From positions 1-54,729 of the forward strand of contig JAJYBV010000006.1 of assembly GCA_021778805.1 (NCBI GenBank): DNA of 54,729 nucleotides, written 5' to 3'. Source of the DNA: Chloroflexota bacterium (GTDB lineage: Bacteria; Chloroflexota; Ktedonobacteria; Ktedonobacterales; JACDGC01). The notes under the pieces are model-generated. The model was not told the origin of the DNA. It searched no databases and was given only the letters and a program-made list of their open reading frames with translations. Shown piece after piece: positions 5,738-13,480 of this stretch (positions within the stretch are counted from its first letter, which is position 1; each line of letters begins with the position of its first letter). Position numbers and translations under genes: made by a program.

Positions 5738-7237
5738 TTATTCCGCGGGTGTTTCGCTGAAAGACTGAGCTGCAGCAGCTCCTGCGCCATATTCACTGAT
5801 GAATTGTTCTACCATAATTCGCGCTTGCGGATCGGTATACTGCACCGGAGGAGATTTCATAAAATAAGCGGATGGTCCAAGGAGCGCGCCGCTGACATCG
5901 TTATCTTTTGCTAATTTTGCGCAGCGGACTGCGTCGATGACAACGCCGGCGGAATTCGGAGAATCCCATACTTCTAATTTCAGTTCCATATTTAAGGGAA
6001 CATCACCGAATGTGCGGCCTTCCATGCGGATGTAAGCCCATTTGCGGTCTGTTAGCCAAGCAACATAATCACTGGGGCCGATATGCACATTTTCCGCGCC
6101 AATATTATAATCTAACTGACTGGTTACAGAATTGGTTTTCGAAATTTTCTTCGATTCCAATCTTTCGCGTTCCAGCATGTTTAAGAAATCGGTGTTGCCT
6201 CCGACATTCAACTGCATGGTGCGCTCTAAGCGAACGCCACGTTCGCGGAAAAGTCTTGTAAGTGTGCGGTGTACAATGGTTGCGCCAACCTGACTTTTAA
6301 TATCATCACCAACAATTGGCAAATGTTCCGCTTCAAAGCGTTCGCGCCAATATTGCTCGCGGCCGATAAAAACGGGGATGCAGTTTACAAAGCCGCATCC
6401 GGCGCGCAGCACTTGTTCTACATACCATTTCGTAGCAGTTTCGCTGCCTACGGGCAGATAATTAACCACAACATCGGTGCCGGTGTCGCGCAGAATTTTT
6501 ACGATATCGCTGGTTGAACCTGGAGCTTTTGTAATGACTTGGGACAGATACTTACCTAATCCGTCGTGTGTCATGCCACGATTTACAGTAACGCCTAAAT
6601 TGGGGACATCAGAGAATTTGTAGGTATTGTTAGGGCCGGAGAAAATCGCTTCGCTCAGGTCTTTGCCAACCTTGGTGGAATCGATATCAAATGCGGCGCT
6701 GAATTCAATATCATGAATATGATATCCGCCTAAGTTAACGTGCATAAGTCCCGGAATAAAATCTTGTTCGCTGGCGTTTTGGTAGTATTGCACACCCTGA
6801 ACAAATGAAGATGCGCAATTTCCGGTGCCGATAACGGCAACCCGAACTTTTTTGCTCATTGAATATTTCTCCCTTGTTGAATCTTGCGCCTGTGTGTGTG
6901 GCGCTTTTGCAAGTATTTGCTGGCCGCTCAGCGAATCGCCAAACGGGGCTGAAGCATAAATAAAGCGGTTTATAGCTGCATATATGCGCGAAAGCGCCCG
7001 ATCGTTTACGGAATAATAGGCTTGCCTTCCGCGCTGGAGTTTTTGCACAACATCTGCCTCGCGCAGAATGCGCAAATGAAATGAGATAAGCGGCTGACTC
7101 TTTCCAAGCGCCAGTGTAATTTCTGATACCGTCATTGCTCCTTGCGAAGCAAGTAATCGCAAGATATTTAACCGGTATATGTCGCCTAATGCGCGCAGGC
7201 TGTGATCAAATTCTGAAGAAGACTGCCATTGATACAA
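5738..7237 (-). CDS. ino1: ArsR-type HTH domain fused in frame to inositol-3-phosphate synthase
   Basis: One open frame of 499 residues. Residues about 8-100 are an ArsR/SmtB winged helix ([17 protein letters not shown], then [18 protein letters not shown] and a wing with [11 protein letters not shown]). A 26-residue polar linker follows. From about residue 127 comes a complete NAD-dependent myo-inositol-1-phosphate synthase of the short actinobacterial/archaeal type: [16 protein letters not shown] (NAD site), [32 protein letters not shown] and EDPP-region equivalents. It turns glucose-6-phosphate into inositol-phosphate for inositol lipids or solutes. The frame opens with TTG and no clear ribosome site. 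A second start at 6859 (MSKKVRV) has GGGAG 9 nt upstream, so a separate 373-residue enzyme may also be made. An HTH fused to this enzyme is unusual. Confidence 0.85.
6857..6873 (-). promoter_or_regulatory. Internal ribosome binding site and start for the synthase part
   Basis: On the minus strand AAGGGAG stands 9 nt before an in-frame ATG at 6859, exactly where the synthase domain begins. It would allow the enzyme to be made without the ArsR domain. The presence of both a fused frame and this site is what makes the arrangement ambiguous. Confidence 0.6.
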
Positions 7238-7469
7238 ACCAATTATCTCAACATATCAATTTATTTTTATATATCTATGTATCCCGATGTTTTCGGGGTT
7301 CTTCAATATTTATAACAGATCTTGTACTCAAAAGTCAAGTATTTTTTACAGATAAATGTAAATATTTTTATATATAAATATTTATTTATATAATTTGCCC
7401 AATTATGGGTATGGCGCATTATCAAAACATGTGTTTGTTGAAAATGCTAATGAATTGCCGTTGCGCTTA

Positions 7470-11680: not shown

Positions 11681-13480
11681 TCAGGATGTTAGCTGTACGA
11701 GATTACCCGGTGAGGAAACTGCAACGGTCAACGGCAGCATCGGTGTTAAAGTAGCAGCCCCAAAAATAGAATAAGTGATATACCATTGTCCGCCGTTATA
11801 ATTTGGCGCCAGCTGAATGGTTACCGTAATCCATTTTGCGTGGTACAGGTTATCGCCGGCAATAGCTGTTTCAATGGTTGTTCCGCCGGATCCCGATGTC
11901 GTTCGCAAATAAGATGGATATATAATAGTCCCTGCATTGGCGGGTCCGGTCACTCCAAGGTTGATATTTTCGTCGGACTCTGCAACGCCGGGGTTAAATA
12001 TTCTTACCGTTACCTGCTGTCCTTTATACGCCGCGGGTATGGTAAAAATAGGATAATTTGTTTGCGAACCGTTTAAGTAAATAGTTTGCGTATTCCATGC
12101 GCCGACAGTTGCGCCTTCACTTAAACAAGGAGGCGATGCGCCATCTGCGCATATCGCCAGCGCATATGCGTGCAATCCATAGCCGCCGCTGATATCGGCT
12201 GTAAAACGGTAATAAAGCGGCGCGGATGTACTATTGGAAAATGTGTATGGCATAGCCACCCAGTTCATAATATCGCTTGGCGTGGGAACGCAGCCCAAAC
12301 CTGCTGTAATCGGCGGATTATAATAACTGCCACTCTGTGGTATCAGCGCTCCGGAACAACCATGCAGTGTTAGATCTGCGGATGTCATATCAAGGGATGG
12401 CAGATATTTCCATGATCCGGCTGGCAAATATACATTTGGCGCGGATTGTGGCGCATAGTTATTTGGCCAAATAGCGGAAACTAAGGTATCTGCGCTGCGG
12501 TGATACCATTCGGGAACGGAATAAAGCGAATAGGCAATATTGGGATAAAACTGAATATTATCAAAATAGGGTGGTGAAAATATATTTTCATACGAATCGT
12601 AATAACTTCCCGTATTTGTGCCGTTTTGATACACAAACTGAGGGTTGTAAATCCACAATACAATATTTTTTGCGCCCGGAGGAATCATCACGAGATAACT
12701 TTCACCGTTTGGAACGCTGCTGTTTGCAGTTAAAAGTCCGCCAAATCCACCGGGTACCGCATCCGGATTGCCGGGGCTGGCGGGGCTGCACTGCGGCCCG
12801 GTTGGATATTGCGGCGCATTGGTTGAAGTGCCTAACCGTGTTGTATAGATATAGTTTGGCGCATCTGCGTAGGTTGTATTAGATGCGTCACTCCATCCGT
12901 CTTCACAAAGAGTTGAATAGGGATCGCCGAATTCTTTTAAATCATTTTGTCCCGTTAAAAAGATGTATTCGCCGCTGCCCGGAAGGCCGACGGAGCTTTG
13001 TGTGTTATCGGAATTAATCGGGGGCAGCATGTTAGCGGTGGCTGTTACACTTGTCCCTATTGCGTTTACACCAACTAAAGCCATAAGAGTAAATGAAAGA
13101 TTTACTGCAATGGAGACGGTAACTTTGGGTATCGGCTGCATCGTTGCAGAAACAGAAATTTTACTTGTGTCGGTAAATCCATTTTGCGCTGCGGCAATAT
13201 CTGCTGCGCCTACTGCATTTGAACCATCCGGAGCAGGGGTTGCTGCGGTAGGAAATGCAGCATAGGGTACAGCGGCAATGGCGGCGGCGTCTGCAGCGGA
13301 TTGTGCGGAGTTCATTTGTATAAATGCGGTAACCTCATCAATGGCTAAACCTGCTATGGCAATAAGAACGACGGCGCTGAACGCAAATAAAACCAGCGCC
13401 TGACCTTTTTGCGGCCGTCGTGTTTTGCAAAGTACTGATTTGATTGTTGTTCTAGTTTCATTTGTATAAAATTTTGGCAT
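11681..13480 (-). CDS. TadG-like pilus-associated protein with long secreted domain
   Basis: The last gene of the Tad operon. After a basic start it has the TadE/TadG-type segment QKGQALVLFAFSAVVLIAIAGLAIDEVTAFIQMNSAQSAADAAAIAAVP, quoted here in parts: KGQALVLF begins at about residue 25, and the QMNSAQSAADAAA helix follows the membrane segment. That pattern defines the TadG/DUF2134 class. The remaining roughly 450 residues would lie outside the cell and are rich in Ser, Thr, Asn, Tyr, Gly and Pro, with beta-type repeats. TadG proteins are minor pilins or anchors for Flp pili. At 599 residues it is long for the class. It begins 9 nt after the second tadE-like gene. Confidence 0.82.
   Translation of the reverse strand: MPKFYTNETRTTIKSVLCKTRRPQKGQALVLFAFSAVVLIAIAGLAIDEVTAFIQMNSAQSAADAAAIAAVPYAAFPTAATPAPDGSNAVGAADIAAAQNGFTDTSKISVSATMQPIPKVTVSIAVNLSFTLMALVGVNAIGTSVTATANMLPPINSDNTQSSVGLPGSGEYIFLTGQNDLKEFGDPYSTLCEDGWSDASNTTYADAPNYIYTTRLGTSTNAPQYPTGPQCSPASPGNPDAVPGGFGGLLTANSSVPNGESYLVMIPPGAKNIVLWIYNPQFVYQNGTNTGSYYDSYENIFSPPYFDNIQFYPNIAYSLYSVPEWYHRSADTLVSAIWPNNYAPQSAPNVYLPAGSWKYLPSLDMTSADLTLHGCSGALIPQSGSYYNPPITAGLGCVPTPSDIMNWVAMPYTFSNSTSAPLYYRFTADISGGYGLHAYALAICADGASPPCLSEGATVGAWNTQTIYLNGSQTNYPIFTIPAAYKGQQVTVRIFNPGVAESDENINLGVTGPANAGTIIYPSYLRTTSGSGGTTIETAIAGDNLYHAKWITVTIQLAPNYNGGQWYITYSIFGAATLTPMLPLTVAVSSPGNLVQLTS

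Follow-up and report, generated by a model that had tools for sequence, protein, structure and literature searches.

The window analysed here is a stretch of 54,729 nucleotides, contig 144 of the 3.25-Mb, 93% complete assembly of a Chloroflexota genome (G000). On its minus strand, positions 5738 to 7237 hold 499 codons without a stop, from a TTG start to a TAA stop, which translate into one polypeptide of three parts: an ArsR-type winged helix-turn-helix (HTH) domain (amino acids 14-90; 6968-7198, minus strand), a linker of about residues 97-126 (6860-6949, minus strand) that is disordered in the AlphaFold model and evolves near neutrality yet is stop-free, and an inositol-3-phosphate synthase (INO1) part (residues 127-499; 5741-6859, minus strand) that is recognized by profiles and Foldseek and is likely also made as a separate short product. 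The same frame is found in five genomes of its family, one of the Ktedonobacteria. The initial annotation had described a single uninterrupted 499-residue frame joining a winged helix to a full enzyme, and translation, profile matches and the AlphaFold model all bear this out; we refer to the gene as the fused arsR-ino1 gene.

The N-terminal domain matches Pfam HTH_5 over residues 22-66 (E 4e-13; 49.4 bits against a cut-off of 22) and the NCBIfam ArsR/SmtB model NF033788 over residues 14-84 (72.2 bits, above the cut-off of 55). AlphaFold models the winged helix confidently, with block pLDDT values of about 87-97 as compared to less than 50 in the linker (residues 97-127), and lays it out as helices at residues 7-16, 20-32, 37-44 and 48-60, a wing at 64-77 and a further helix at 79-94; the core of the recognition helix, SQPL(I/V)SFHL, is retained in all five fused genes. 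Foldseek matched the ArsR structure 6j05 (E 1.5e-6), lower in its list than the inositol synthase structure 1gr0. The fused HTH has its winged-helix fold and family profile in common with the ArsR/SmtB repressors (6j05, 6j0e, SmtB), but it is attached to an enzyme and lacks an N-terminal cysteine and hence a cysteine metal site. Metal sensing was set aside as a function of this domain because residues 1-126 of the translated protein contain no cysteine at all. The metal-sensing cysteine motif is not universal in the ArsR/SmtB family and is missing from many ArsR proteins that do not sense metals; its absence here speaks against metal sensing only, and not against membership of the family.

Within the enzyme part, in which residues 127-480 make up a complete synthase, Pfam Inos-1-P_synth (PF01658) matches residues 318-426 (E 3e-37; 127.7 bits against a cut-off of 27), and TIGR03450 matches residues 131-480 over the full length of the profile with 532.8 bits, which is below the equivalog cut-off of 638 and leaves the enzyme short of the score for assignment to the mycothiol-type INO1 proteins. 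The Ino1 of Mycobacterium tuberculosis (1gr0) aligns to it without gaps over 353 residues (481 bits) and is also the closest solved structure found by Foldseek (E 3e-41, with 56% identity in the structural match); the two are alike over the whole enzyme part, but 1gr0 has no N-terminal regulator domain. AlphaFold likewise gives the INO1 fold, although some stretches, notably residues 346-398, are modelled with low confidence.

As to where the product goes, the mycothiol pathway was rejected, the genome's match to MshC scoring better as a cysteine-tRNA ligase. The G000 genome has one CDP-alcohol phosphatidyltransferase (L184, contig 147, around 11817-12281), which is closest to the archaetidylinositol phosphate and phosphatidylinositol phosphate synthases at 150 and 141 bits, under the respective cut-offs of 180 and 170. 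This gene lies directly downstream of a family-4 glycosyltransferase gene, a pairing that suggests a glycosylated phosphatidylinositol lipid. In the actinobacterial route inositol-3-phosphate is used directly for phospholipid, and the combination of a phosphatidylinositol phosphate synthase-like gene with no match to an inositol monophosphatase in the G000 genome fits such direct use. It is likely that the product of the fused enzyme feeds phosphatidylinositol phosphate synthesis.

Distribution, origin and selection

The family was sampled with six genomes, of which G000 and G001 represent the window's genus, G003 and G005 a second genus and G004 a third. All five that carry ino1, spanning the three genera, have the fusion in one stop-free frame; the sixth (G002, 80% complete) has no ino1 match, and its ArsR match is unrelated and adjoins an ArsM-like methyltransferase gene. 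Linker length varies between the three genera in steps of complete codons; as delimited here, the linkers measure about 38, 48-50 and 10 codons. The genes that neighbour the fused gene in the window were refound in G001 alone and not in G003, G004 or G005, and no conserved cluster extends beyond the genus in the stretches examined.

Outside the family the picture is that of two genes. In all of the 46 further arsR-linked loci (a figure that includes a few duplicate records) a stop lies between arsR and ino1, and the gap between them measures 2-218 nt except at three loci whose HTH is 726-946 nt away. Such pairs in other Chloroflexota (e.g., G061, G058 and G012) resemble the window's gene in their related HTH and INO1 sequences, gene order, promoter layout and motif, and differ from it in the stop and gap where the fused gene encodes one polypeptide. 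Among the 400 Chloroflexota genomes searched, 350 have ino1; the matches listed, a part of which were re-read, include no other stop-free match that spans HTH and enzyme. The long-open-frame values of that search apparently read through stops, and the candidates that they raised (e.g., G024, G012, G269, G360 and G087) proved on re-reading not to be fusions. Other phyla were sampled through the best 80 matches of one scan. The same domain order, which the initial annotation had proposed to look for in other genomes, does therefore occur elsewhere and, as far as seen, in the window's own family only.

The fused genes group together in a single clade in maximum-likelihood trees of both parts, with support of 100/99 for INO1 and 100/98 for the HTH, and the fused enzyme clade lies amid split sequences from the order to which the family belongs. 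The simplest reading of these trees is a single fusion event in the ancestor of the family through loss of the regulator's stop codon. Loci L028-L033 and others of the sister family Ktedonobacteraceae hold a solo ino1 that has neither an arsR linked to it nor the operator-like site described below, which suggests that the circuit was lost within this order.

The two parts of the fused gene have evolved at very different rates, the HTH far faster than INO1. Between G000 and G001, dN and dS are 0.043 and 0.311 for the HTH (ratio 0.14), 0.211 and 0.328 for the linker, and 0.005 and 0.613 for the enzyme; between G003 and G005 the corresponding values are 0.146 and 0.705 (ratio 0.21), 0.246 and 0.394, and 0.045 and 0.527. 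The linker ratio is thus about 0.6, and the fused HTH values fall inside the range of the split HTH pairs (0.04, 0.17 and 0.52). The fused HTH is under purifying selection. Since it is constrained and no stop precedes the enzyme, we infer that the long form must be made. When the linkers of the three genera are shuffled, the chance that they stay stop-free is about 0.13-0.17, 0.28-0.30 and 0.49, and that of open, in-frame linkers in all three is about 0.002, a rough product that includes one-in-three frame odds for two genera. The arsR-ino1 fusion is real, family-wide and under selection.

Immediately before the enzyme start, the linker of the second genus (L006 and L007, of G003 and G005) contains a conserved motif, C-x2-C-A-H-V-P-P-Y, in which about 20 bases are identical and which is absent from the window's genus. 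A metal or redox function is conceivable for it, as is that of an RNA or DNA element.

Promoter and operator-like site

Upstream of the fused gene, on the minus strand, the sequence presents a -35 element, TTGACT (7333-7338), and, after an 18-bp spacer, a -10 element, TATAAA (7309-7314); a similar TTGAC(A/T)-N17/18-TATA layout is seen in G001, G003, G005, G004 and the split relatives. Across the upstream regions of arsR-linked ino1 genes the common layout is TTGACA-N17/18-TATATAAA, surrounded by an inverted repeat. In the window an operator-like palindrome of the form TATAAA-N6-TTTATA, TATAAATAAATATTTATA, occupies 7373-7390 and is the sole exact copy in the G000 genome. Another inverted repeat, CCCGA-aaaca-TCGGG, lies in the 5' leader (7283-7297, minus strand); in the sister genome G001 it shows a paired change to CCTGA/TCAGG. 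It may fold into a hairpin or offer a further binding site.

The palindrome was first spotted by eye and its pattern picked after viewing the arsR-linked set, and a fair test therefore has to set it against unlinked promoters and entire genomes. Of 38 upstream regions with a linked arsR, 14 contain TATAAA-N5..7-TTTAT, as against none of 106 unlinked ones (shuffled mean 0.05). With more loci, the spacing fixed at 6 and at most two mismatches allowed, TATAAA-N6-TTTATA is found in 35 of 50 arsR-linked promoters as compared to 2 of 113 unlinked. Exact copies number one each in the genomes of G000, G003 and G005 and two in that of G001, and in each of these genomes the fused gene has one upstream of it; G004 carries a copy with one mismatch. 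The control, the same pattern reversed, gave as many as 10 matches in a single genome. The linkage of arsR to ino1 is widespread in Chloroflexota (L009-L027, L036 and L137-L183) and is accompanied by the conserved TATAAA-N6-TTTATA; many of these loci have an additional, third half-site (TTTAT) some 15 bp downstream. This regulatory circuit is apparently undescribed.

The placement of the site is not uniform. It overlaps the -10 element in many split relatives as well as in G003 and G004, and G005 combines an exact site further upstream with a near copy overlapping the -10. In the window's genus (G000 and G001) the geometry is altered: the site is upstream of the -35 and not over the -10, so that simple occlusion of the promoter is not obvious there. 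The fused protein had been suspected of binding to the AT-rich region 7240-7460 at its own promoter; this idea gains weight from the genome's only exact palindrome, which lies within that region, and the binding itself is predicted from this site.

Two starts in one gene

Inside the frame, an ATG at 6857-6859 (minus strand) would start an enzyme-only product, preceded by the Shine-Dalgarno (SD) sequence AAGGGAG (6869-6875, minus strand), which is identical in G001 and different or weaker in G004, G003 and G005. A start codon is present at this site in all five fused genes, as ATG in four and as GTG in G004. Pairing energies of the internal SD (in kcal/mol) are -8.6 in G000, -8.6 in G001, -8.8 in G004, -5.9 in G003 and -5.6 in G005, i.e., strong in three genomes and moderate in two, and the window's value is among the best 1.4% of codon positions in the frame. 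The SD of the long start, which in the window's genus is a TTG (7237 in the window) with weak pairing, gives -2.7, -4.0, -8.4, -9.5 and -7.0 for the same genomes in the same order. To judge from these sites, a short, enzyme-only form of 373 residues is likely also made; in the window's genus it probably outweighs the long form, and in the second genus the proportions may be the other way round. The earlier proposal that the gene yields a long and a short product is plausible in all five genomes, where the internal ribosome site is kept; the two products are predicted from it.

Two other readings of these starts have to be weighed. Only the full-length protein might matter, with the enzyme always tethered and the internal start a relic of the ino1 ribosome site, and the weaker internal SDs and good long-start SDs of G003 and G005 agree with this; but the internal ATG or GTG is kept in five of five genes beside a variable linker, and three genomes (G000, G001 and G004) have a strong internal SD, which in the first two pairs far better than the SD of the long start; we regard this reading as rather unlikely. 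Still less credit attaches to the converse, that the enzyme alone is mostly made and the upstream HTH frame is rarely translated and decaying. The weak TTG start of the window's genus and the much faster evolution of the HTH than of INO1 would suit it, but a decaying frame is hard to match with an HTH dN/dS of 0.14-0.21, similar to that of split HTHs, with the SQPL(I/V)SFHL core and the operator-like site both kept, or with the low odds of open, in-frame linkers in three genera. That an error of sequencing or assembly deleted a stop between two genes, which the two-gene arrangement of relatives outside the family might have hinted at and which the initial annotation had named as grounds for abandoning the fusion, can be dismissed, as can chance, by the recurrence of the fusion without a stop in five genomes of three genera whose differing linkers are all in frame.

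Proposed autoregulation by a candidate trigger enzyme

Profiles and the AlphaFold model place an enzyme and a DNA-binding domain in one protein, which is the make-up of a trigger enzyme, and our preferred reading, to which we give a probability of roughly two in three, is that the fused protein is an autoregulating trigger enzyme that putatively represses its own promoter. A small ArsR-type regulator is often encoded immediately upstream of ino1 in Chloroflexota and would bind TATAAA-N6-TTTATA at the promoter that the two genes share. Loss of the regulator's stop codon in the ancestor of the family would then have made regulator and enzyme one polypeptide, and the long form would now act through its HTH at 7373-7390 to repress or otherwise set its own transcription. 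With the old ino1 ribosome site retained inside the gene, ribosomes probably also make the 373-residue enzyme alone, and the state of the enzyme (NAD, glucose-6-phosphate or inositol phosphate) may tune DNA binding. A more elaborate possibility, which we put forward only tentatively, is that the long repressor-enzyme and the short enzyme form mixed tetramers in which catalytic state and subunit ratio together set binding at the single operator, making this a self-titrating inositol synthase.

PutA and BirA are trigger enzymes, each of them working in a pathway whose genes it also represses (PMC6978683), and it is in this double role that the autoregulating fused protein would resemble them. 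They combine a different enzyme with a different DNA-binding domain, and regulation was shown there by experiment whereas here it is deduced from the site and from selection. In the Corynebacteriales, too, ino1 has a transcriptional regulator of its own that acts through a palindrome: IpsA, a LacI-type activator encoded by a separate gene and unrelated to ArsR, which is released by myo-inositol (PMC3899939). The comparison that had been drawn with regulators next to ino1 in Actinobacteria is accordingly off target, the arsR-ino1 pair belonging to the Chloroflexota and the regulator of the Corynebacteriales being of the LacI type (PMC3899939). A literature search, conducted mainly outside the subscription journals, returned no paper on an ArsR-inositol synthase fusion or on the arsR-ino1 pair of Chloroflexi. 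To our knowledge, the control of bacterial inositol synthesis outside the Corynebacteriales has been little studied.

In this family a regulator and what is apparently its only target have become one protein with the operator-like site kept, and two-gene relatives persist in sister families, so that the origin of a putative trigger enzyme can be traced step by step. The case also brings to light an arsR-ino1 circuit of the Chloroflexota that has a conserved operator-like site.
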